From a virus, in the IMG/VR virus record IMGVR_UViG_3300031857_001293, positions 1 through 24,850 of that record: a DNA stretch of 24,850 nt. One strand, 5' to 3'. The stretch's first letter is position 1, and every line of letters starts with the position of its first letter. Shown one piece after another: positions 10,339 through 24,850 of the stretch. Below the pieces are notes generated by a model that made no database searches, was not told the DNA's origin, and saw only the letters and a program-made list of their open reading frames with translations. Made by a program: the position numbers and the translations under genes.

Positions 10339-12594
10339 TCAGATGCTACCCAAAGCCTTGGCAGTATAGATGCCCGTGGCCAATTGCGACAGCGGCGACG
10401 GGCTATAACTGGCACCCGAGGTGCTACCCGTACTCGTCTGCACGGTTGGCACAGAGGGTGCGATACCGCGTATCTGCGTGCTGAGCCAATCCAATTGCTT
10501 CTGCGGATACAGCCGATCTTCCTCGGCCTTAGCACGGTCACGGTCAAAAATCCGCTGCACCATGTTTTGCTGAGCGGCACCAGCAGACTCAAGAGCCGCC
10601 GCATCCGCCGTTCTGAGGGCCTGATTTTGACGCGCCATCTCGCTGACATTCTGCAACGCCGACATCTGACGCACATAATCCTGGGCCTGGGCGGCTTGTG
10701 CCTGCTGCACCGCAGACAAACCATACTGTTGCTGAGCCTGACCGGCAGACGTCTGCATCTGGCCAATGTTGGCAAGAGTTTGCATCTGCTGACCGGTAAG
10801 CTGGCCGGATGTCTGACCCAAATTGGTGAGAGCTTGTAACTGCTGACCGGTAAGCTGTCCGGTGGTTTGGCCGAGATTTGCAAAAATATTGGCCTGCTGG
10901 CCTGTAAGTTGGCCTGCGGTTTGGCCAACATTGGCGAGGTTTTGCGCTTGCTGAGCAGTAAGCTGACCGGATGTTTGGCCGATATTAGCAAGGCTCTGCG
11001 CCTGCTGAGCGGTTAGCTGACCGGAAGACTGACCCATGTTGATAAGATTTTGTGCTTCTTGATTAGTAAGCTGTCCTGCTGACTGACCGAGGTTGGTAAG
11101 AGCTTGCATCTGCTGGTTGGTAAGCTGACCATAAGTCTGACCAATGTTAGTCAGATTTTGCATTTGCTGATTTGTAAGCTGGCCGGTGGTCTGACCCAAG
11201 TTGGTAAGAGCCTGCAACTGCTGAGCTGTGAGCTGACCCGTGGTCTGGCCCAAGTTGGTAAGAGCTTGCATCTGCTGGCCAGTGAGCTGACCGGCGGTCT
11301 GGCCAAGGTTACCGTACTGGGCACCACCCTGAAGAACGCGCGACAAGTCTGCGCCGCTGATGCTGCCCACGGTGCCAGCCAACTGAGCCTGCCGCGCCAG
11401 ATCGGCTTGGGCGGCGCTGAGAGACTGACCATAACCCTGTTGTGCCGCTTGAGACTGCTCTCTAAGGATGGCCTCCTGCGTGTCTCGCAGGGCGCGAGAA
11501 CCAAACTCACCCATACGGTTGGAACCGAACTGCCCGGCCTTGATGAAAGCGTCGGAGACCTGCGGCAGCAGGTTCTCGGACAAGTTTCGGGCACCCTGCT
11601 TTGCAATGACATCCAGCACGCCCTGCTGATAGGGCGACATATACTGGCCGACCTGTGAGGCCGAAGTCTGACCAGCGGCGGTGAGGTAGGGACTAGCTGC
11701 TGTCAGCGCGCGCTCGGCAAGAGATTGGGCAGTAGTGTTCTCGGCCTTGTTCAACAGCGGCTGCGCCGCGCCCACAATGTCCATCGACCCGGCGCGATTA
11801 AGGTACGGCTGCGCCGCGCCCACGATGTCCAGGGCACCGGCGCGATCAAGGTATGGCTGGGCTGAACCTATAACATCCAAAGCCGACGCGCGCTGAAGAT
11901 ACGGATCAGCGGCTTTAACGTTGTCAAGGGCGTTGGCTTTGTCAAAATATTTTTGAGCCGCTCCGATGCCACTCTTTGACGCGGCTTGATCAAAATAAAA
12001 TTTGGCAGCGCCTGCAATATCTTGCGATGCGGCTCGTTCAAGATAAGGCTGCGCCGCCCCTGTAATATTTTGAGATGCGGCTTGACCCAAATAAGGCTGT
12101 GCGGCCCCCATGAGATTTTGAGAGGCGGCTTGGCCCATATACGGCTGGGCTGATCCCAAAATATCTTGAGACCCAGCGCGCTGAAGATAAGGCTGGGCGA
12201 CCCCGGCAATGTCCATCCCGGCGGCTTGGCCATACAATTGCTGGCCAGCGTTAAGGCTTGAACCGACCAAATCTTGCCGAAGATACGGAGCCTGACCGGC
12301 TCTAAGCTGATCCGCGGTTCCCCTGCCGGAAAAATCCTTCATGCCCGTGCTGGCAAAAGTCATGTCGGGCTGGTATGCCCCGACGTTCTTGTTTACGAGG
12401 TCATACGCCTGCAATTGCTGCGGCGCGAAGCCTGCAAGCCTCTCGCCTTTATATGCTTCATATGGCCGGTTAGCTATATTGGTGGATGTTTGAATTAAAT
12501 TGTAAATAGCATCTTGCATCCACTTCGGTGTTTCCGAAGTGTTTTGTGCATACGATGTGGCAACTTGCGGCTCGCCCTGAAACAAACTAGCCAT
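10339..12594 (-). CDS. Repeat-rich virion protein with 16- and 18-residue arrays
   Basis: This is a 751-residue Gln/Ala-rich protein. Residues 1-116 form a non-repetitive head. Residues 117-292 are eleven units of 16 residues (consensus AQPYLxRAxSxDIxGA). Residues 293-430 are a helical, non-repetitive middle. Residues 431-610 are ten units of 18 residues (consensus GQTxGQLTxQQxQxLxNL). The C-terminal 140 residues include a charged helix and a Ser/Thr tail. No enzyme motif is present. An 18-residue period equals five alpha-helical turns, and a 16-residue period also permits regular helical packing, so long rods or stacked helices are plausible. Its place between two other putative ejection proteins favours an injected or tail-interior protein; a ruler-like role is an alternative. 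The ATG overlaps the upstream stop codon as TGATG, with AGGGAG as ribosome-binding site. Confidence 0.75.
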   Translation of the reverse strand: MASLFQGEPQVATSYAQNTSETPKWMQDAIYNLIQTSTNIANRPYEAYKGERLAGFAPQQLQAYDLVNKNVGAYQPDMTFASTGMKDFSGRGTADQLRAGQAPYLRQDLVGSSLNAGQQLYGQAAGMDIAGVAQPYLQRAGSQDILGSAQPYMGQAASQNLMGAAQPYLGQAASQNITGAAQPYLERAASQDIAGAAKFYFDQAASKSGIGAAQKYFDKANALDNVKAADPYLQRASALDVIGSAQPYLDRAGALDIVGAAQPYLNRAGSMDIVGAAQPLLNKAENTTAQSLAERALTAASPYLTAAGQTSASQVGQYMSPYQQGVLDVIAKQGARNLSENLLPQVSDAFIKAGQFGSNRMGEFGSRALRDTQEAILREQSQAAQQGYGQSLSAAQADLARQAQLAGTVGSISGADLSRVLQGGAQYGNLGQTAGQLTGQQMQALTNLGQTTGQLTAQQLQALTNLGQTTGQLTNQQMQNLTNIGQTYGQLTNQQMQALTNLGQSAGQLTNQEAQNLINMGQSSGQLTAQQAQSLANIGQTSGQLTAQQAQNLANVGQTAGQLTGQQANIFANLGQTTGQLTGQQLQALTNLGQTSGQLTGQQMQTLANIGQMQTSAGQAQQQYGLSAVQQAQAAQAQDYVRQMSALQNVSEMARQNQALRTADAAALESAGAAQQNMVQRIFDRDRAKAEEDRLYPQKQLDWLSTQIRGIAPSVPTVQTSTGSTSGASYSPSPLSQLATGIYTAKALGSI
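10765..11304 (-). repeat. In-frame tandem repeat, 10 units of 54 bp
   Basis: Ten consecutive 18-residue units inside the 751-residue protein (residues 431-610), all exactly 54 bp without insertions. The invariant core is GQ-x2-GQLT, then usually QQ and LxNL/I. Units differ mostly at three or four positions, and the DNA repeats are similar enough to recombine. This is coding sequence, with no spacers between units. Confidence 0.95.
11719..12246 (-). repeat. In-frame tandem repeat, 11 units of 48 bp
   Basis: Eleven consecutive 16-residue units (residues 117-292 of the same protein), exact 48-bp period. The middle units follow AQPYLxRAxSxDIxGA. The first unit, two units near residues 197-228 and the last unit are more divergent, as expected for an old array with degenerate edges. 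Confidence 0.93.
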
Positions 12595-16630: not shown

Positions 16631-17832
16631 CAGAAGGCCCCGCCGTCGATGTTACCGGCCTGAGCCACGCCGAGTGCCGCCCAGGCGGCGGGCTGATCCA
16701 CCGCCGTGAACAAGGCAATGCCGGTGGCCGTACCGCCCAGGTTGATCCGGGCACCGCTGGCAGTGGTGGCATTCGTGCCACCCTCTGCGATGGTCAGAGG
16801 AACTGAGATGCCCTGCGTCGATGCGTTGAGAACATTGGTCCCATCGCAATACAGGATGGCGCGAGAACTCTGGGAGATAACAAACCCGGCACCGCCTCCC
16901 GAAGGCGAAATGGTGAGCGTGTACGCCCCGGTGGTTTGGTTATCGACCCAATACTGCTGCACGGTGGCGGGCACCACGACAGTGCGATTTCCGGTAAGAG
17001 TTCCGGTAAAACGATATGCAACCCGGTTTAGTTCCGAACCCGTGAGGGTGTAGGTGCCTGTACCCCCAATGGCGATCACCGTGTAGTCGAACGCGAATGT
17101 GGCCGACTGGCCGAAGCCAATGGTGAAAAAGTTCGTACCGTCAGACGCGATGATCGCGGATTCGCCGGGCTGAAACGAAAGGAACAGGGCACCGTTGATC
17201 GTGATGACGCCGGGCGGGTCTGCGACAATCGCACCCGTGCCGCTGTTCCGCAGATAGACGAACCAATTATTCCCAACCACCGTGGGGTCGGGCAGTGTGA
17301 AAGTGCCGCCCGCAGATGTCCAGTTGAACATCTTGGCGCGGTCGGTAACGCCCGCCGTGTAATTGGTGTTGAAGGTGGTGATGGGCACCGACTGGCTGAG
17401 CAGCGTGCCGACAGCCACGATGCCGGTCCCGGCCAGGGCGCTGGCATTGGCGATGGAAGTCGCCGCGCCATACTGGAGAGAGCGCCAGACGCCCGCAGCG
17501 GTGGTGTTGTCGGAGAGATAAACCTGCCACAGCGTGCCTGCCGGAACCGTGACGACCTGCGTCCCAACGGAGTTTTTAACGGTGAAGGTTTCGGCACCAC
17601 GGTTGTTAAACAGGATCGTGTTGCCGACGCCGGTCTTGTTGGCAGGCGGCAGGAAGATGCTGAACCCCGCCGCCGATGGCGTGACGTCGATGATTTTTGT
17701 AGCGAGGTTCTCGTTCGCAGAAGTCTCTTCCGGCCAGCTAAGAACCACGTCGACGCTGAGCGTGATCGAGCTATAGCTGATTTCACTCGGGTAGATATTC
17801 GCGCCGCCGAAGACGTCTTGATAAATGGTCAT
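16630..17832 (-). CDS. Tail fibre / receptor-contact protein
   Basis: This is a 400-residue, Thr/Gly/Asn-rich beta protein without enzyme motifs. The N-terminus (TIYQDVFGGANIYPSEISYSS, then LSWPEET and IIDVTP) resembles the conserved anchor I know from phage tail proteins. Residues 50-330 hold repeated beta units (VTVPAGTLWQVYLSDN and LSFQPGESAIIASDGTNFF types), each ending in an aromatic strand. The C-terminus has IAEGGTNATTASGARINLG, a common fibre-tip repeat, and ends in DGGAF. It is encoded between the adaptor and nozzle genes, overlapping the adaptor stop codon by 4 bases, with GAGGA as ribosome-binding site. It probably attaches at the adaptor/nozzle level of the tail. Fibre identity is likely; the receptor is unknown. 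Confidence 0.72.
   Translation of the reverse strand: MTIYQDVFGGANIYPSEISYSSITLSVDVVLSWPEETSANENLATKIIDVTPSAAGFSIFLPPANKTGVGNTILFNNRGAETFTVKNSVGTQVVTVPAGTLWQVYLSDNTTAAGVWRSLQYGAATSIANASALAGTGIVAVGTLLSQSVPITTFNTNYTAGVTDRAKMFNWTSAGGTFTLPDPTVVGNNWFVYLRNSGTGAIVADPPGVITINGALFLSFQPGESAIIASDGTNFFTIGFGQSATFAFDYTVIAIGGTGTYTLTGSELNRVAYRFTGTLTGNRTVVVPATVQQYWVDNQTTGAYTLTISPSGGGAGFVISQSSRAILYCDGTNVLNASTQGISVPLTIAEGGTNATTASGARINLGGTATGIALFTAVDQPAAWAALGVAQAGNIDGGAF
16639..16644 (-). promoter_or_regulatory. Ribosome-binding site made from fibre C-terminal Gly-Gly codons
   Basis: GGCGGG lies 8 bases before the nozzle ATG at 16630. It is read in the fibre gene as the Gly-Gly of the terminal IDGGAF peptide, followed by TGATG. 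The same layout recurs at 24046-24051. Confidence 0.5.
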
Positions 17833-18461
17833 GCTTCGGTCCTCGCCGCGCTACGGTCCATGATGCGTTTCATATCCTCGCCCGTGAGCGCCTGCGCGGT
17901 CCTGTCGTACATCGCTTGCCAGACCTGTATCCTCTCATCGCTCTTGAGGAATGGAGTAGCCTCCAACAGCGTGGCGTAGAGAAGAATGTCAGGCGCATAC
18001 TCCGTCAGCCAGTTGGTTTGCAGGTCATCTCCGAGCAGGGCAGGCTGCTCATAATACATAACCTCGAGGACACCCGCCGTGCTGGGCGTCGGGGTGATCA
18101 GCCAGTGCTGAAAATCATAATCGGCGTAAAACTGCGGCGTGCCGGTCGACGCCTCGTTGGGCCAATAGCTGCGCAGATATTCGTAGGATCGGGCAAAAAT
18201 CGGCGTGCCGTTGACGGTCATGCTGATCGTGTCGCGCCAGCGATCCGGCTTGGCATAGACCGCCACGCCGACCTGCAAGCTGGTCTGCACCGGGCGGATG
18301 AAGCCCTGAATTTTGAGTTCACGCGCGATCCGACGCTGTGCCAGCGTGATCAAACGCGGTAGCTGCTCATAGACGATCTGGTCGCTCTCGGCGGTAAAAC
18401 CGCGCTCGAGATAGCGACGAACGTCCACCAGCAGGCTGTCGTAAGTCATTACATAAGACAT
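17829..18461 (-). CDS. Head-tail adaptor protein of short-tailed phage
   Basis: This 210-residue protein is mainly helical at both ends. Residues 1-55 (TYDSLLVDVRRYLERGF, then LPRLITLAQRRIARELKIQGF) are the typical first helices of P22 gp4/SU10-type adaptors, with the LAQRRIxREL signature. A central beta part contains DRWRDTISMTV, RSYEYLRSYWP, and QHWLITPTPSTAGVLEVMYYEQP. A last helical part has YAPDILLYATLLEATPFLKSDERIQVWQAMYD. These proteins join the portal ring to the tail nozzle. GGAG lies about 8 bases before the start; a second ATG at codon 5 is less likely. It is the first structural gene after the lysis cassette, which suggests that the true head genes lie outside the window. Confidence 0.8.
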   Translation of the reverse strand: MSYVMTYDSLLVDVRRYLERGFTAESDQIVYEQLPRLITLAQRRIARELKIQGFIRPVQTSLQVGVAVYAKPDRWRDTISMTVNGTPIFARSYEYLRSYWPNEASTGTPQFYADYDFQHWLITPTPSTAGVLEVMYYEQPALLGDDLQTNWLTEYAPDILLYATLLEATPFLKSDERIQVWQAMYDRTAQALTGEDMKRIMDRSAARTEA

Positions 18462-18756: not shown

Positions 18757-18913
18757 CGGCGGATTTCCTTATTTCCTGTTCGAGTTCAGCGGCATTGGCG
18801 CGAGCATGCTCGCCGCCACTCTTGCGTCCGATTGCCCAAGCCGAAGCAATAGCACCGACGACAACGAGGATTGCCGCCAGCGTGCCTTGCAGCTTACCCC
18901 AGATGAATGCCAT
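18692..18913 (-). CDS. Rz: i-spanin (Rz-like inner-membrane protein)
   Basis: This 73-residue protein has one N-terminal transmembrane helix (about residues 9-28, LQGTLAAILVVVGAIASAWA). A charged, alanine/glutamate-rich helix follows (EHARANAAELEQEIRKSADEAAR), suited to the periplasmic coiled coil of Rz. The start chosen is the ATG at 18913, which overlaps the endolysin stop codon as TGATG. The same frame is open further upstream to 19141, but that extension lies opposite the endolysin reading frame and is cysteine- and glycine-rich nonsense. It is shorter than lambda Rz (153 residues). A pinholin or holin is an alternative for a single-helix protein here, but the overlap with a lipobox gene favours spanin. 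Confidence 0.65.
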   Translation of the reverse strand: MAFIWGKLQGTLAAILVVVGAIASAWAIGRKSGGEHARANAAELEQEIRKSADEAARTAQQSTAADRLRTGNF

Positions 18914-19563
18914 CAGGCGTCCCTCTTCTTCAACAGGTATATCGCCGCAAGCACGACGGCCCCGGCAACCAAGGCCACGCCCACCGCCCAGTGAATGCCA
19001 CTGAGGCTTGTCAGGGCCGGTGCCGCAGTCGCAGCCGCCGCAGCGACACCACCCAGCTTGCTGGCATCCATCGCCATTGAGCCCTGGGCCGGTGTGGCGG
19101 GCTCGACGCTGCGAGAGGATACGAAAGCACCCTTGGCCCACAGACCGGCTTCAGCGGCCCGCCTGTTGCTCAGACCAGCGTTCACCTTTTTCTTGACTTT
19201 GTTCCAGCGAGCCAACTCGCCGGGCACTGCGCCTGCGTCGCCTGCGTTGAGTTTGCGGATAAGGGTGCTATTCCGCATGGCATTGGTGCCGACGTTGTAC
19301 GTCCAACTGACCAGGGCAGCGAACTGATTGTCGGTGAGTTTGGCGGTGACCGCGCGAGAAACCGCTTCTTCTGCAATTGAAAGATCAATGAGAAGAAGTT
19401 TGTCGGCGTCTTCCTGGCTGATCCGCATGCCTTCGGTGACGCCCAGCGTATGGCCATATCCGATGGTCCAGGCACCGGCAGTGCAGCGGTACGCCTCTAA
19501 ACGGAGACCCTCCCACTGCTTGATGAAAGCAAGCCCTTCAGGGCTGATCCGGCGCGTCATCAT
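18913..19563 (-). CDS. Endolysin, T4-type lysozyme (GH24), with C-terminal transmembrane segment
   Basis: This 216-residue muramidase cuts the peptidoglycan glycan chain. Near the N-terminus (numbered from the ATG at 19563) Glu18 in KQWEGLRLEAYRC, Cys27 and Thr33 in TAGAWTIGYGHT form the E-x8-C/D-x5-T triad of phage GH24 lysozymes. Later conserved parts are TDNQFAALVSWTYNVGTNAM and the NRRAAEAGLW segment. After about residue 150 an Ala/Ser/Pro-rich linker leads to a strongly hydrophobic helix (about 192-211, WAVGVALVAGAVVLAAIYLL) followed by KKRDA. No N-terminal signal or SAR segment is visible. The ATG overlaps the preceding stop codon by 4 bases. An upstream in-frame GTG at 19590 would add nine residues and has no ribosome-binding site. 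Confidence 0.87.
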   Translation of the reverse strand: MMTRRISPEGLAFIKQWEGLRLEAYRCTAGAWTIGYGHTLGVTEGMRISQEDADKLLLIDLSIAEEAVSRAVTAKLTDNQFAALVSWTYNVGTNAMRNSTLIRKLNAGDAGAVPGELARWNKVKKKVNAGLSNRRAAEAGLWAKGAFVSSRSVEPATPAQGSMAMDASKLGGVAAAAATAAPALTSLSGIHWAVGVALVAGAVVLAAIYLLKKRDA

Positions 19564-20036
19564 GCCAGCACCGGCCAGACGACATTCCACGGGAAGCCGG
19601 CTTGATTTGGCACATCCCGTAACGCTTGCCTATAAGTTGCCCAAGCAAGATCATCAACGGGAGCATCAGCCAGCTGAGTCCAATCAGATGCAGCCAATCG
19701 AGCATTTCGGTCTTGGCGCACGGCTTCAGCTTGCCGCGCATCCTGCTCAGCCAATTCATCTGCCGTTTTATTGACCACCTGAAATTTAATTACCCATTGC
19801 CCGTTTTCCAAAACAGGACCAGAGGCGGTAATTAATTTTTGGGTATGCTCATCATAAGATGGCGTTGCTTCATCAACTACTACCTCCAAAGTTTCGCCGG
19901 AATTATTAGCCTCGGTGCCTTGGAAGGCTTGATACAGTTCAAGGCCATTAAAATTTGTGTACGGATTATCAGCCTGCAATTCAGCATACCCGTATGGGTA
20001 TTGAACAACTTGGCCGTTTTTAATTTTGACATACAT
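19560..20036 (-). CDS. Tail fibre assembly chaperone-like protein (Phage_tail_APC type)
   Basis: This is a 158-residue protein. The N-terminus (YVKIKNGQVVQYPYGYAELQADNP) resembles fibre-assembly proteins, and the C-terminus RLAASDWTQLADAPVDDL followed by YRQALRDVPNQAGFPWNVVWP matches the Phage_tail_APC domain (PF16778) with its ASDWTQ, YRQALRD and GFP...WP hallmarks. Members sit next to tail-fibre genes and are thought to help fibre folding or attachment, though some may be virion parts. A GAGGA ribosome-binding site lies 9 bases before the ATG. It is the last gene before the lysis cassette and lies downstream of the two glycosyltransferases. Confidence 0.78.
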   Translation of the reverse strand: MYVKIKNGQVVQYPYGYAELQADNPYTNFNGLELYQAFQGTEANNSGETLEVVVDEATPSYDEHTQKLITASGPVLENGQWVIKFQVVNKTADELAEQDARQAEAVRQDRNARLAASDWTQLADAPVDDLAWATYRQALRDVPNQAGFPWNVVWPVLA

Positions 20037-20063
20037 GGCTGTGTCCTCACAAAGCGGTGGAAA

Positions 20064-20759
20064 CTACTTCATATTATCAATACGAACATTAGAGCGGTTC
20101 ATTTCAGAACGCCCCTCTATTGTCGTTTTGCCGTCCTGATCATCAAAAGCAAACAACCCTATTTGGTGAATAGGGAAGATATCTGCCCTTAACACAACGT
20201 CCAAAGATTTGGATATTCCATATTGTAAAACGTGCGCCAACATATTTTTTGCCACAGCCGGATCTATGGCATAAGCATGCGCCCGTAAAATAAAATGGTA
20301 ATTAGGGCCATCAGTCCCATGGGGGGGAGTTGGAAATATATTCCAGCCCTTTTGGGCCTGCTCATTACACCCGAGATATGCAATAGAATTAAAAACAGTA
20401 TGTGTAAGATAAGGGCGAACCATAATTGCGTCATGCTCAAGAATAACAATCGGTTTATCTTGGATAACGCATTTTGCCCACAAACTAATATGAGAAAGCG
20501 CGCAACAAACTTCTGCGCGAACCAAATAATGGTCCGTCAGCTTTATGCAACTCATGATTTGGTCGTTTGAAAGATGGTCTGGCGTTTTTATAAAGTCTCC
20601 AGTTCCATCATAAGCATCCCAAAAATCAAAAGGCATTCCCACATTTAAACAAGATTCAGCGCAATTTTTTGCTTTTTCTTCCGAAATAGGATTGCCTTTA
20701 ATGCGTATAATATACGCTTTATCAACATTCATATCATACGAGTAAAAAAGAGATTTCAT
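20064..20759 (-). CDS. Glycosyltransferase family 25-like protein
   Basis: This 231-residue, soluble, AT-rich gene product shows the GT25 (LPS/collagen-type glycosyltransferase) plan. KAYIIRIKGNP lies at residues 14-24, VCCALSHISLWAKCV near 84-98 (conserved Ser-His) and IVILEHDAIM at 104-113. Here Glu108-His109-Asp110 replaces the usual EDD metal-binding acidic patch. PHGTDGPNYHFILRAHAYAI near 146-165 fits the acceptor-side strand before the final helix. It would transfer a sugar onto LPS or, in phage context, onto a virion protein. Its ATG overlaps the stop codon of the preceding glycosyltransferase by 4 bases. The change within the EDD motif could affect activity. Confidence 0.78.
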   Translation of the reverse strand: MKSLFYSYDMNVDKAYIIRIKGNPISEEKAKNCAESCLNVGMPFDFWDAYDGTGDFIKTPDHLSNDQIMSCIKLTDHYLVRAEVCCALSHISLWAKCVIQDKPIVILEHDAIMVRPYLTHTVFNSIAYLGCNEQAQKGWNIFPTPPHGTDGPNYHFILRAHAYAIDPAVAKNMLAHVLQYGISKSLDVVLRADIFPIHQIGLFAFDDQDGKTTIEGRSEMNRSNVRIDNMK

Positions 20760-21754
20760 GCGGCAACCCTCAAGGACACTTTTTCTTTTAATGCCACTTG
20801 AACATTTGCCAAAGTGTCATCCCACTCCCCATATTTAGTTTGCCGAAAAAGTTTTACACTGTCATACCAAGCTGATTTATCGCCGGGAACCGCCCAAGTA
20901 TAATATGGCAAAACTGGAACAATAACCCATGTCTCTATTCCAAGCGCTCCCGCCAAATGCGCGATGCTTGTGCAAGAGGTTATGACAAGATCAAGGCCAG
21001 CAATAATGCTAGCAGCGTCTTCCCAAGTTTTTAGTTGGTCGCGCAAATCAGCAAAAGGCAAACCATCTATAAGATTGTCATCGCGTTGCAAGCTGTAGAG
21101 CGTCACATTTTGGATAGAATGTAAATTAATTAACGGTTCAGGAGGAAAAACGCGATGTTGTTGATGTTCAAATTCAGGACTACCTGCCCAACGTATACCA
21201 ACTTTTAAGGAGGCTTGTTTTGCAAAAAGTTTCCGGGGCTGTGCCGTTAGATAAGGTGCCCCCGACAAAATATTCATTTCATAACCAAGAATGTGGGCAG
21301 CAGACATTGCTGGAACCCAATAATCATAATGCACCCGCTCAACAACTTCAGTATCAATACAAATAAAACCATGACGCGAAAAAAGTGGTTTTAATTCAGC
21401 AGAGCAAGAAACAACAACACGAGCGCCTTTTTTAATAAAATCTTTTGCAAATCTAAAATTAATAATCTGATCACCGTAACCGCCTTCAGATCGGAATAAA
21501 AGCGTTTTACCTTTAAGCGGTTCATCACGCCATATTGGCCCTTTTATACGCGGCAATCCAAAACAATTAATAAAGCGACCTGCGTCCATAAGGCGTAGGC
21601 TTTCAGATAAATTACCATGACGCATTTCATGCCAACCAAGGTTAAACAATACTCGCGGATCATCTTGAGGTTGCTCACGCAATATATTTTCAGACACATC
21701 TTGGTGCCCGTTAATTGAAGCATGAAGAGCTGCATCAAGAGGATGAATTTTCAT
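20756..21754 (-). CDS. TPR-linked glycosyltransferase (GT9/GT41-like, GT-B fold)
   Basis: This is a 332-residue cytoplasmic glycosyltransferase. Residues 1-60 hold about one TPR-like helical pair (FNLGWHEMRHGNLSESLRLMDAG). The GT-B core then has LLFRSEGGYGDQIINFRFA (86-103), a glycine-rich first domain loop. LKVGIRWAGSPEFEHQQHR is near 183-201, VTLYSLQRDD near 217-226, and LDLVITSCTSIAHLAGALG near 254-272 is the nucleotide-sugar-binding part. The ending SAWYDSVKLFRQTKYGEWDDTL is also typical. Bacterial proteins of this type carry many TPRs and are linked to protein or surface glycosylation; here the TPR part is trimmed. Its ATG overlaps the RCC1 stop codon as TAATG. The low G+C content, unlike flanking genes, suggests acquisition. 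Confidence 0.8.
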   Translation of the reverse strand: MKIHPLDAALHASINGHQDVSENILREQPQDDPRVLFNLGWHEMRHGNLSESLRLMDAGRFINCFGLPRIKGPIWRDEPLKGKTLLFRSEGGYGDQIINFRFAKDFIKKGARVVVSCSAELKPLFSRHGFICIDTEVVERVHYDYWVPAMSAAHILGYEMNILSGAPYLTAQPRKLFAKQASLKVGIRWAGSPEFEHQQHRVFPPEPLINLHSIQNVTLYSLQRDDNLIDGLPFADLRDQLKTWEDAASIIAGLDLVITSCTSIAHLAGALGIETWVIVPVLPYYTWAVPGDKSAWYDSVKLFRQTKYGEWDDTLANVQVALKEKVSLRVAA

Positions 21755-22872
21755 TAAGAAAGACCTATACTAAAGAAAGAAGCATCAATTTGCGCCCATG
21801 TTGTTTTTGACCCCACTTGTGTAAAAGATGATCTTTGAGTGTTATCAGCTAATCCAAGTTGGCCTTGATTATTATATCCTACGGCCCATAAAGTTCCTGT
21901 TGTTTTAATTGCAAAATTAAATTCTTCACCAGCAGCAGCAGATGCCCAGTTAGTATCAGTTCCCACTTTTACTGGCGATGATCTATTGGTTGTATCGCCT
22001 TGGCCAAGTTCACCGTATTGGTTTCGGCCCCATGTCCACAAGGTTCCATCAGTTTTTATAGCTATGGATCCAGTAAGGCCACCAGAAACAGATTTCCAGT
22101 TCGTTAAAGCACCCACTTGAATGGGAGATGAATAATAAGTTGTATTACCCACTCCAAGTTCGCCATAGTCGTTTGATCCCCAAGCCCATAAAGTACCATT
22201 GGTTTTTATAGCAAGAGAAAAATATCTCCCACAAGCTACATATGCCCAATCTGTTCCAGCACCAATTTGAACTGGGGATGAATAACTTGTTGTGTTATTT
22301 AACCCAAGACTTCCAAATGCGCCAAATCCCATAGCCCATATTGTGCCATTAGTTTTTAACGCTATAGTATGAAGATCGCCACACGAAACCATGGACCAAT
22401 TTGTAAGACTTCCAACTTGTGTGGGAGATGACCTCTCAATAATATTGTTTTGGCCTTGCTGACCTTGGCCATTTCCTCCCCATGACCATAAAGTTCCGTC
22501 AGTTTTTACAGCCATTACTTGCAATTGCCCAATTGCAAGTTGTTTCCAATTTGTTAAAGCGCCCACTTGAACGGGAGATGATTTATTCCCTGTCGCGTTT
22601 TGGCCTAATTGCCCTGAATTATTTAACCCAAACATCCATAAAGAACGGTTATTTTTGATTATGCCCGCAGCATAATAACCGGCGGCAACTTTGGACCATG
22701 TTTTTAATGCCCCGATTTGCACGGGAGATGATTTGTTTACTACAGTATTATCACCTAAATTGCCGTTATCGTTTGGACCCCATGTATAAAGTTCATATCC
22801 TGCAACACCAGCGCTTAATCCTTGCCCAAACGCTCTAGCAGAAGCCGCGCCTCCGGTGATGATAGTAGGCAT
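21754..22872 (-). CDS. RCC1-like seven-bladed beta-propeller, probable virion surface protein
   Basis: This 372-residue protein starts with TIITGGAASARAFGQGL, a Gly/Ala anchor similar to the first residues of some phage fibre-type proteins. RCC1 repeats follow. The LWxWG-x-N-x2-G-x-LG motif occurs seven times at exact 50-residue intervals (Gly at 32, 82, 132, 182, 232, 282, 332), each followed by SSPxQVG and xNW. Seven blades make a closed propeller, and the missing last strand is likely supplied by the N-terminal part. RCC1 domains are binding platforms for proteins or sugars; no catalysis is implied. The position between a fibre gene and glycosyltransferases suggests a receptor-binding or decorated tail protein. 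GTGAGG precedes the ATG by about 8 bases. Confidence 0.83.
   Translation of the reverse strand: MPTIITGGAASARAFGQGLSAGVAGYELYTWGPNDNGNLGDNTVVNKSSPVQIGALKTWSKVAAGYYAAGIIKNNRSLWMFGLNNSGQLGQNATGNKSSPVQVGALTNWKQLAIGQLQVMAVKTDGTLWSWGGNGQGQQGQNNIIERSSPTQVGSLTNWSMVSCGDLHTIALKTNGTIWAMGFGAFGSLGLNNTTSYSSPVQIGAGTDWAYVACGRYFSLAIKTNGTLWAWGSNDYGELGVGNTTYYSSPIQVGALTNWKSVSGGLTGSIAIKTDGTLWTWGRNQYGELGQGDTTNRSSPVKVGTDTNWASAAAGEEFNFAIKTTGTLWAVGYNNQGQLGLADNTQRSSFTQVGSKTTWAQIDASFFSIGLS
21757..22806 (-). repeat. Seven in-frame 150-bp RCC1 repeats
   Basis: Residues 23-372 of the RCC1-like protein are seven units of 50 residues without any insertion or deletion. The DNA is clearly repetitive (recurrent forms of CCATAAAGT-CC-AGTTTTTA and of GGGGATGAAT-like stretches), compatible with recent duplication or continued exchange between units. 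Confidence 0.9.
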
Positions 22873-22881
22873 CCTATGGCC

Positions 22882-23688
22882 TCACTTAAATTGGGTTTGC
22901 GTGGTGAAAACAGTGAACGCTGCGGAACCCGTTTTTACAATGGTGTATGTATAAATATCAATGCTAGATGCATTGCCCGCAGTCCAAGCGGTGCCACCCT
23001 GATACTTAGGCGTTACCGCCGAACCATCAACCTGAACGGCGCTGTTGTAATATGCCGTCGCTCCCTGGGTAACAAGGAACGCTACCGTGATACATTGGCC
23101 TGTTGACATTGCCGTGTTCAACGATGTGCCAGACGAAGCTCTAAAATTCACCGTCCAGTTGGCCGAGGCATTACTGGTGTAATACAAAACGCTTTGCGTG
23201 GTTACATCATACGCAATCGTGCCGGTGGCAGCGGTTGCGCTTACCGTGGCAACCTCAGCGGCATTCGTGAGCACTGAAGCCAGCGCCGCAGTCGTCCCTG
23301 CCAGCGTCAGCGTTGTTCCGTTTGTGGTGATGCCACTGGTTTCGCCGACTACCGCCGCATTGTCATACAGCAAACGCGATGACGTACCGCTGGCGATGGA
23401 TGTAGTGCCAATTGTAAGACCGGAAGCAGGGGTCGAGAACGTCAACGTGCCCGATCCGTTGGTTGTGACCACCTGACCATTCGTGCCGTCTGCGGTGGGG
23501 TATTTCAGCCCCGCCGGGTTGTTCATGAGGCGAACGACTGTGCCTGAGGCGTTCTCAGCGAACAGCGCCATGTCAGCGTTGTTGATGTTGATCGCAAGTT
23601 CGCCGGGGGCGAGGTTTGCAGTCAACGGCACCGCTGCGGCGGTCGTCGTGCGGTATAATTGGATTGGGGTGTAGCCGGTTTGTGCCAT
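22882..23688 (-). CDS. Tail fibre-like beta-rich virion protein
   Basis: This 268-residue Thr/Ala/Ser/Gly-rich protein has the N-terminus AQTGYTPIQLYRTTTAAAVP and then LAPGELAININNADMALFAEN. This is a widespread start of phage fibre and collar-type proteins (GELAIN...LF/LY..N..G...). The middle is low-complexity beta repeats, including TADGTNGQVVTTNGSGTLTFS, as in fibre shafts. The C-terminal 110 residues (TGTIAYDVTTQSVLYYTSNA to the FTVFTTQTQFK end) form a globular tip domain that I recognise from other phages as a terminal segment ending in QTxF. A very good ribosome-binding site, GAGGTGAT, precedes the ATG. It is expressed together with the RCC1-like protein and may carry receptor-binding tips. 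The exact place on the virion is unknown. Confidence 0.75.
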   Translation of the reverse strand: MAQTGYTPIQLYRTTTAAAVPLTANLAPGELAININNADMALFAENASGTVVRLMNNPAGLKYPTADGTNGQVVTTNGSGTLTFSTPASGLTIGTTSIASGTSSRLLYDNAAVVGETSGITTNGTTLTLAGTTAALASVLTNAAEVATVSATAATGTIAYDVTTQSVLYYTSNASANWTVNFRASSGTSLNTAMSTGQCITVAFLVTQGATAYYNSAVQVDGSAVTPKYQGGTAWTAGNASSIDIYTYTIVKTGSAAFTVFTTQTQFK

Positions 23689-23692
23689 CAGA

Positions 23693-24037
23693 TCACCTCA
23701 GATTTTCAATCTTATACAGCGTTTTCATATACACCGCTGTCATTTCATCAAGGATATTTTCAAGGGCTGGAACGCCCCGGGCAATTTCCTTGCGGTTGGA
23801 ATTTAGCCATAGCAGGTCTTTGCGAAGAAACTTAGCAATATCCTTGACCTGCTCGGGGGCCTGTTCAAGCTGCCCAAAAGTGCCTTGGTATGCCTCAACA
23901 TAGCGGTCGAGCACGCCGATGATGTCTTCGTAGAACTCACCGAGAGCTTCGTGCTGGGAAAAACTGTTGGTCGTCCAATGGTTGGCATGTGCGGTATTCC
24001 GCGCCTCAAAGGACTTTGTGATCAGGTCTTTGATCAT
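23693..24037 (-). CDS. Dps/ferritin-like small protein (DUF5856-like)
   Basis: This is a 114-residue all-helical protein. The segment AHANHWTTNSFSQHEALGEFYEDIIGV, then LDRYVEAYQG, reproduces the ferroxidase-type spacing of Dps. His20-Trp21 corresponds to the HW pair, His29 to the second His, and Asp44 and Glu48 lie 15 and 19 residues after it, the spacing of the Dps Asp and Glu. The residue 4 after His29 is Gly, with Glu34 next to it, so one ligand is shifted. The remaining helices are charged. It is shorter than Dps (about 167) and may assemble as a four-helix bundle of two subunits. DUF5856 proteins occur in phages without known function. It lies between two fibre genes, the ATG overlapping the fibre stop codon as TGATG. 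Confidence 0.7.
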   Translation of the reverse strand: MIKDLITKSFEARNTAHANHWTTNSFSQHEALGEFYEDIIGVLDRYVEAYQGTFGQLEQAPEQVKDIAKFLRKDLLWLNSNRKEIARGVPALENILDEMTAVYMKTLYKIENLR

Positions 24038-24850
24038 CAGAACGTCCCTCCATCAAGACCGGCGAAAACTGGCACGCCCGCACCCGCAGATACCAGAACT
24101 TGTCCGGCAGTGCCATTGGCAATGAATGCCGTAGTTCCCGCCCCGCTTTGATATGGAATCTGACTGGCCGTTCCGCCCGCAAGATTGGTCGCAGTTCCCA
24201 CCGCCAAAGACGATTGTGCGGACCAAGTGGGAGAACCTGTTCCGCCCGAGAGCAAAACCTGAGCAGAAGTGCCTGCCGCGCTGAAGGCGTATGCTGAGCC
24301 GTCACCGTAAGCTACGGCACCAGCAGTTGGCGCGGCAGTGGCGTTCGTGCCGCCGTTTGCAACAGGCAGCGTGCCGCTCACATGCGTGGTGAGACCAATC
24401 TTGCCGTACAACGGTGCAACGCCCACGCCACCTGAAATCAGAGCATTACCGGTGGCGACATCTGCCAGCTTTGAAAGCGTGGTCGAAGCGCTGGCATAAA
24501 CAATGTCGCCAATTGCGTACGAGGCGATGCCCGTGCCGCCGTAATCTGCCCCTATGGTTGTCGCGTTCCAAGTCCCGGCGGTCAGGGTACCGACGCCCGT
24601 GATGCCCGTGTAGGAGCCGCTCAGGCGCGCCGAGTTGAGCGTGCCGGATGTAATCTGGGTGGCAGCAATCGCAATTGAGGTGTCAGCCGCTAGGGTCAAC
24701 TGGCCCTGAGCGTTCACCGTGAACGTGGGAACCGCTGAAGCCGATCCATAGCTGGCCGCCGTCACCGCCGTGTTGGTGATGCTGAAGACGGTTCCGGCAA
24801 GGGTCAGGCCGGTGCCTGCCGAATAACTGGCACCAACCGAATCAGCATCG
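24037..24850 (-). CDS. Tail fibre protein, 5'-truncated by the window edge
   Basis: The frame is open to the right edge without a stop codon, giving about 271 residues of the C-terminal part. A GTG at 24765 is internal to fibre repeats and is not a convincing start. The sequence is a chain of fibre-shaft repeats: GASYSAGTGLTLAGTVFSI, FTVNAQGQLTLAADTSIAI, ITSGTLNSARLSGSYTGI and GTLTAGTWNATTIGADYGGTGI are the familiar shaft units of phage tail fibres. They are followed by LPVANGGTNATAAP and PTAGAVAYGDGSAYAFSAAGTSAQVLLSGG, and the end is LDGGTF. No chaperone, peptidase or enzyme tip is seen. It is the first gene of the late arm in the window. The rest, including the virion anchor, lies beyond 24850. 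Confidence 0.83.
   Translation of the reverse strand, partial: DADSVGASYSAGTGLTLAGTVFSITNTAVTAASYGSASAVPTFTVNAQGQLTLAADTSIAIAATQITSGTLNSARLSGSYTGITGVGTLTAGTWNATTIGADYGGTGIASYAIGDIVYASASTTLSKLADVATGNALISGGVGVAPLYGKIGLTTHVSGTLPVANGGTNATAAPTAGAVAYGDGSAYAFSAAGTSAQVLLSGGTGSPTWSAQSSLAVGTATNLAGGTASQIPYQSGAGTTAFIANGTAGQVLVSAGAGVPVFAGLDGGTF
24046..24051 (-). promoter_or_regulatory. Ribosome-binding site made from fibre C-terminal Gly-Gly codons
   Basis: GGAGGG lies 8 bases before the ATG of the Dps-like gene and is read in the fibre frame as Gly-Gly of the terminal LDGGTF peptide. The spacing and the following TTC-TGATG are identical to the junction at 16628-16644. Confidence 0.55.

Follow-up and report, generated by a model that had tools for sequence, protein, structure and literature searches.

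An exchangeable low-G+C phage cassette that joins a proposed RCC1 fibre tip to two glycosyltransferases

The 24,850-base IMG/VR virus record IMGVR_UViG_3300031857_001293 (the window), from a phage with an SU10-type adaptor, contains a low-G+C island that is a horizontally exchanged fibre-tip cassette. It encodes an RCC1 propeller, a GT-B glycosyltransferase and a GT25-family glycosyltransferase, and includes the front of a tail-assembly chaperone gene. On balance we think that this RCC1 tip is glycosylated by the phage's own enzymes, probably through the addition of heptose, in a way comparable to the modification of bacterial adhesins by TibC. The features of the cassette are as follows.

19766 to 22975, no strand: low-G+C island (two-change-point fit and G+C profile).
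22825 to 22872, minus strand: first 16 codons of RCC1, a leader common to non-RCC1 sister tips, and left exchange edge (blastn edge; N-termini of open reading frames in L178, L179, L183 and L185).
21754 to 22872, minus strand: RCC1 seven-bladed propeller, 372 aa, proposed fibre tip (seven PF00415 matches, tip allelism, fibre fusions).
20756 to 21754, minus strand: TPR-like and GT-B glycosyltransferase, 332 aa, with a heptosyltransferase (GT9/TibC) fold (AlphaFold 2, Foldseek, VIA-align).
20064 to 20759, minus strand: GT25-family glycosyltransferase, 231 aa, with an invariant E108-H109-D110 (PF01755, alignment, Foldseek).
19560 to 20036, minus strand: chimeric tail-assembly chaperone, its low-G+C N-terminal part belonging to the cassette and its C-terminal part to the backbone (PF16778, third-position G+C of 0.41, sister homology).

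The two-change-point fit gave a G+C content of 41.4% within the island and 57.0% elsewhere, with a log-likelihood gain of 138 nats. In 500-bp windows the island maximum (0.448) and the minimum outside it (0.464) left the two ranges without overlap, and G+C at third codon positions was 0.28–0.35 in the RCC1, GT-B and GT25 genes and 0.47–0.75 in the others, the chaperone (0.41) being the exception. This windowed G+C and codon scan confirmed the low-G+C island of the original prediction, which had been made from the letters alone and whose four hand-counted samples (28.3, 40.0, 61.7 and 66.7%) were exact. The overlaps TAATG (RCC1/GT-B) and ATGA (GT-B/GT25) lie on the minus strand as described, and the gene identities held, with seven RCC1 repeats and GT25 recovered by Pfam and the TPR-like part and GT-B fold by an AlphaFold model. 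The predicted limits, 20040–22880, did not hold, most of the chaperone gene also lying inside the island. The sharp change placed near 22880 is a composition edge at ∼22975, and the exchange edge differs from it, falling at 22825 inside the first 16 RCC1 codons.

Sister phages were retrieved with the adaptor protein, which sits outside the island. Their adaptor, DUF5856 and endolysin proteins were mostly 95–100% identical to those of the window, whose flanking genes are listed here.

22882 to 23688, minus strand: fibre protein upstream of the tip (phrog_5906, phrog_1699).
23693 to 24037, minus strand: DUF5856 protein, backbone (Pfam; 100% identical in L178, L179 and L182).
24037 to 24849, minus strand: fibre-like protein that runs off the window (phrog_30390).
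18913 to 19560, minus strand: endolysin, the conserved flank directly outside the cassette (PF00959; 95–97% identical in L178, L179, L181 and L182).
17829 to 18461, minus strand: SU10-type adaptor, the backbone marker for the association test (PF24175).

Nucleotide homology (blastn) to L178 and L179 ended at 22825 and restarted at 19564; in L181 and L182 it restarted at ∼19641. The interval held glycine-rich tips and a putative 2-oxoglutarate (2OG)-Fe(II) oxygenase in L178, L179 and L185, a glycine-rich tip in L183, a DUF7483 protein in L181 and a repeat protein in L182. Residues 1–16 of RCC1 were those of the glycine-rich tip of L179 at all positions but one (leader MPTIIT[G/R]GAASARAFG). Because these first 16 residues are common to some sister tips, RCC1 is an exchangeable fibre-tip allele. 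L184, with an adaptor 97% identical, yet carried a different RCC1, and its GT-B protein was 40% identical to that of the window; several of the closest GT-B proteins (76–80%) came from loci in which no adaptor homologue was detected. Sisters with near-identical flanks thus carry other genes in exactly the RCC1–glycosyltransferase interval, as expected of the acquired cassette first proposed from the base composition. In other phages the same gene families had roughly the G+C of their surroundings (0.32–0.62), so low G+C is no general property of the module and the strong contrast is peculiar to its acquisition by the window.

The RCC1 protein matched PF00415 in seven stretches (E 4e-66) and PF25390 with 246.6 bits against a cut-off of 150. 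The N-terminal ∼90 aa of the fibre protein at 22882–23688 were fused to RCC1 in L107, L108 and L110–L112, and its first 54 aa in L123; four further loci joined RCC1 to other fibre-like domains. Among cultured phages, the T7-like Pseudomonas phage SeaP2 combined RCC1 with a T7 fibre N-terminal domain (E 6e-5, slightly below the Pfam cut-off), and in phages of Brevibacillus, Clostridioides and Synechococcus RCC1 adjoined fibre or adhesion genes. RCC1 therefore occupies the tip locus, exchanges with other tips and fuses to fibre anchors. From these comparisons we predict that the propeller is a fibre tip that binds the receptor. A location in the virion is suggested by analogy with phAPEC6, for which eleven RCC1-like proteins were described and mass spectrometry of virions found six "DNA condensation protein" entries, mostly of ∼40 kDa (PMC7247149). 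The RCC1 tips were highly divergent, ∼45–55% identical to one another, and many relatives had multiple RCC1 genes or multiple propellers per protein, up to ∼2,200 aa; L055 and G005:C1 have RCC1 open frames of this size with many tandem propellers.

An ordinary mosaic, in which low G+C reflects drift or some unrelated insertion and the annotated DNA-binding role of RCC1 is right, would agree with PHROGs, which places phage RCC1 under DNA metabolism, and with the proposal of the phAPEC6 authors that RCC1-like proteins order DNA in the capsid (PMC7247149). Tip allelism, fibre fusions and the position in fibre operons all speak against it, and we regard it as very improbable. The PHROGs families concerned are phrog_7220, phrog_4219 and phrog_16766, whose filing is contradicted by the fibre fusions; the fibre-tip evidence changes the annotation of many phages.

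The linkage of the glycosyltransferases to RCC1 was examined in IMG/VR, whose records may be fragments. In loci retrieved with the glycosyltransferase proteins alone, RCC1 was present in 44/44 GT-B loci and 57/57 GT25 loci having at least 4 kb upstream, which form 14 and 18 clusters, respectively, at 85% identity. The loci without RCC1 all had less than 2.3 kb upstream. Nearly every GT-B frame (140/144) started at most 300 nt from the RCC1 stop. A second set, seeded with the adaptor, comprised the best 80 of 540 and the best 80 of about 600 adaptor matches; among its 42 loci with 8 kb upstream, one or both glycosyltransferases occurred in 6/6 RCC1-positive and 0/36 RCC1-negative loci. The association had p = 2e-7 (p = 1e-5 without the two query phages, at 4/4 versus 0/36), values that are optimistic because closely related pairs are present, at least five within the 36 and one within the six. 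With 44/44, 57/57 and 6/6 versus 0/36, the co-occurrence of the three genes as a unit is stronger than the original prediction had guessed. That prediction was to be refuted by propeller homologues regularly found without any glycosyltransferase, and this is partly the case, since distant phage RCC1 proteins with none annotated near them do exist.

We also considered the broader statement that RCC1-negative loci have no glycosyltransferase at all, and it was false, a few carrying GT2, GT1/4-type or sulfotransferase genes. The exclusivity claim is therefore restricted to the GT-B and GT25 families described here. One such RCC1-negative cassette, at L308:6004-8638, contains a sulfotransferase, an APS-kinase-like protein and a fibronectin-type tip candidate.

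The GT-B protein itself had no match in Pfam, PF01075 included, and PF01075 matched 13 of 44 relatives (best E 4e-4). In its AlphaFold model (pLDDT 93.8), the helices of a TPR-like part lie at the N terminus and a GT-B fold comes after them. A GT-B profile searched against PDB chains returned nothing at E 0.1, and hence no sequence similarity to TibC; fold comparison was used because this search was empty. The first Foldseek match was TibC, the heptosyltransferase of bacterial adhesins, and VIA-align gave Z scores of 14.7–16.3, with 224–246 residues aligned, to TibC (16.0), a GT9 enzyme and WaaC/WaaF; for TibC and the GT9 enzymes the range was 15.8–16.3. The fold is that of a GT9 heptosyltransferase like WaaC/WaaF. 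D95, invariant in the 44 relatives, lies within an E-x-G-x-G-D turn-helix, where we would place the catalytic aspartate of GT9 enzymes. Two homologues are of separate interest. Rhodocyclus gracilis, a distant cellular one (L373:5179-6831), has TPR repeats and a GT9 match 4.6 kb from fliW and is a possible flagellin glycosyltransferase, the flagellar setting making protein glycosylation plausible; in the cultured Synechococcus phage BUCT-ZZ01 (L259:8281-9996), which also has RCC1, the GT-B homologue is fused to a weakly matched methyltransferase domain.

The GT25 protein matched PF01755 with 46.2 bits against a curated cut-off of 24 (E 6e-12) and had matches in the PDB at E 5e-5; E108-H109-D110 was invariant in the alignment. 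With its model (pLDDT 78), Foldseek first matched human COLGALT1 and then other galactosyltransferases, a PBCV-1 capsid-associated enzyme and mimivirus R699. The top fold matches of both glycosyltransferases, TibC and COLGALT1, are thus enzymes that act on protein.

Related cassettes contain further enzymes. An HldE-type adenylyltransferase was found in 20 loci with RCC1 and a glycosyltransferase, in 16 of them together with HldD, four of these having been fetched by the backbone alone. The heptose-1-phosphate adenylyltransferase matched TIGR02199 (E 2e-53, 1 bit below cut-off) and the ADP-heptose epimerase TIGR02197 (E 4e-58, below cut-off); a shortened HldE-type kinase was also present. These ADP-heptose genes (HldE-type adenylyltransferase and kinase, HldD) adjoin RCC1 and a glycosyltransferase at L147:6687-9554 and also in L129, L134, L166, L323, L338 and others. 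A UDP-galactopyranose mutase (TIGR00031, E 5e-82, below cut-off; PF03275, above cut-off) occurs at L118:8068-9069 and in 14 further loci of this kind. Many cassettes had sulfotransferases, fused to GT-B in one open reading frame in 65 of 175 GT-B frames (for example L118:3785-5548, L142:2579-4420 and L366:5179-6984). In Synechococcus phage S-SRM01, RCC1 genes were interleaved with a TPR-glycosyltransferase, a 2OG oxygenase, a sulfotransferase, a GT2-methyltransferase fusion and a nucleotide-sugar epimerase.

We propose the following course of events. The propeller would serve as the receptor-binding tip, attached through the short shared leader or, in relatives, through a fused fibre domain. 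Both glycosyltransferases would be made from the tail-gene operon through overlapping, coupled reading frames and would act in the host cytoplasm ahead of assembly, adding sugars to the propeller or to the fibre that bears it. GT-B most likely uses ADP-heptose as the donor for heptose transfer, like TibC on bacterial adhesins; GT25 may add a further sugar. The sulfotransferase, methyltransferase, ADP-heptose synthesis and UDP-galactopyranose mutase genes vary among related cassettes, so the glycan would differ between phages; the benefit may be tip stability, adhesion or shielding. Of the two options raised originally, self-decoration of the tip is favoured, with RCC1 as the presumed sugar acceptor.

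Three observations favour glycosylation of the tip, none of them decisive: the glycosyltransferases track the RCC1 fold and not one receptor type, RCC1 being highly divergent; they are encoded within a tail operon, in reading frames overlapping that of the tip, and an integrase was found in none of 21 long relatives; and 2OG oxygenases, sulfotransferases and methyltransferases suit the tailoring of an adhesin. Several points weigh on the other side. The window itself has no sugar-supply gene, and the enzymes would therefore depend on host supply. The GT-B model is matched equally well by TibC, by the lipopolysaccharide (LPS) heptosyltransferases WaaC/WaaF and by a GT9 enzyme, and because of this tie the fold suggests the donor and not the acceptor. 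Neither glycosyltransferase was seen in the retrieved flanks of 5/16 RCC1-seeded IMG/VR loci, nor was one annotated near distant RCC1 genes in fibre clusters of cultured phages (by deposited annotation, with hypothetical proteins not all scanned). Since the glycosyltransferases need RCC1 but RCC1 occurs without them, this asymmetry is what is expected of an enzyme that needs its substrate. Finally, an enzyme altering the host receptor of the tip would likewise travel with the tip, and ADP-heptose and sulfation suit LPS too.

These last points bear on a rival reading, superinfection exclusion, in which the glycosyltransferases alter LPS or some other glycan on the host surface and thereby keep progeny from re-adsorbing to debris or the infected cell. 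They would then accompany the tip since they must change the receptor it reads. The equal closeness of the GT-B model to WaaF, WaaC and TibC, the naming of GT25 (PF01755) for LPS biosynthesis and the ADP-heptose genes of related cassettes are all consistent with this. However, both families occur only with the RCC1 fold and are missing where this backbone carries another kind of tip, and RCC1 tips only ∼45–55% identical probably bind different receptors. Coupling to a tail gene would also seem to make the enzymes ill-timed for exclusion, the integrase count was 0/21 in long relatives that may be fragments, and no typical multi-pass Gtr membrane proteins lie beside the glycosyltransferases. We consider host-surface modification possible but rather unlikely.

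Less likely still, the enzymes could add sugars to phage DNA or to some other protein of the virion or host, their adjacency to RCC1 being module transfer alone. Other phages do glycosylate capsid and tail-tube proteins or DNA (PMC12619734). Where upstream sequence was available, though, the glycosyltransferases never occurred without RCC1, a pattern not expected of bystanders. A thymidylate-synthase-type hydroxymethylase gene (PF00303) was present in 0/21 long relatives, a count that covers this route alone and comes from records that may be incomplete; DNA glucosylation appears unlikely from gene content.

Exchange of the lambda Tfa or T4 gp38 type swaps a fibre tip together with its assembly chaperone between near-identical backbones. 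The window shows the same tip and chaperone swap, and its cassette adds two glycosyltransferases. Phage serotype-conversion (Gtr) clusters also carry phage glycosyltransferases; unlike these, the window enzymes are soluble and lie in a tail operon beside the tip gene, with fibre, chaperone and lysis genes as neighbours and no membrane GtrA/GtrB beside them. COLGALT1, a GT25 collagen galactosyltransferase, and mimivirus R699 share the GT25 family and an E-x-D type motif with the window GT25 and are among its closest solved folds, but the window protein is a single domain of 231 aa, and no collagen repeats occur in the window's RCC1 or glycosyltransferase proteins.

The bacterial autotransporter heptosyltransferases (BAHT) TibC/AAH resemble the GT-B protein in being cytoplasmic enzymes of the GT-B heptosyltransferase fold encoded beside the repetitive adhesin to be modified; the TibC family forms an iron-bound dodecamer that heptosylates its adhesin, and the candidate catalytic base of TibC is Asp-110 (PMC4358343). 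In contrast, the window enzyme is a phage gene product with an N-terminal TPR-like part and no PDB sequence match, and its acceptor would be an RCC1 propeller instead of a beta-solenoid autotransporter. Mycobacteriophage enzymes modify the phage's own virion proteins, as summarised in PMC12619734 from Freeman et al. (2023), a likeness that for the window consists of genomic linkage alone. The targets given there are the capsid and tail tube, whereas the target proposed here is an exchangeable fibre tip whose enzymes lie inside the exchange cassette. No paper found in the open-access literature connects the RCC1 proteins of phages with both fibre tips and glycosyltransferases.

If enzymes that move with tips glycosylate them, receptor binding depends on a post-translational step missed by sequence-based host-range prediction and recombinant fibre work, and adhesin heptosylation would extend from bacteria to phages; the ADP-heptose genes of some cassettes name a testable donor. 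More tentatively, a widespread class of phages may exchange RCC1 tips as self-glycosylating cassettes made up of a TPR-GT9 heptosyltransferase (often sulfotransferase-fused), GT25 or other glycosyltransferases, a chaperone and, in some, a private ADP-heptose or UDP-galactofuranose supply, giving sulfated or heptosylated tips with a glycan that takes part in recognising the host.

Two candidate generalizations were set aside. SSP as an acceptor motif occurred in 82% of the blades of glycosyltransferase-linked propellers versus 40% in unlinked ones; it is not claimed because the unlinked propellers are few (63 blades) and divergent and the motif is present in aligned blades from both sets. That each tip type has its own enzyme, with 2OG oxygenases serving glycine-rich tips, was kept as a lead only, 2OG-like genes being found in just 5/36 RCC1-negative loci. 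The oxygenases beside glycine-rich tips, at L178:7992-8666 (PF13759 tested in L178), L179:7818-8666 and L185:2655-3578, may represent a second tip-modifying cassette.

The larger genes from 5709 up to the right end of the window lie on the minus strand. A search of INPHARED gave no DNA-level match to the window, and the module of RCC1 and two glycosyltransferases was found again at 100% in a 39,851-base record. A 751-aa gene holds tandem repeats of 54 bp (∼10 copies) and 48 bp, at 10758–11304 and 11758–12171 of the window, which vary among the sister phages.

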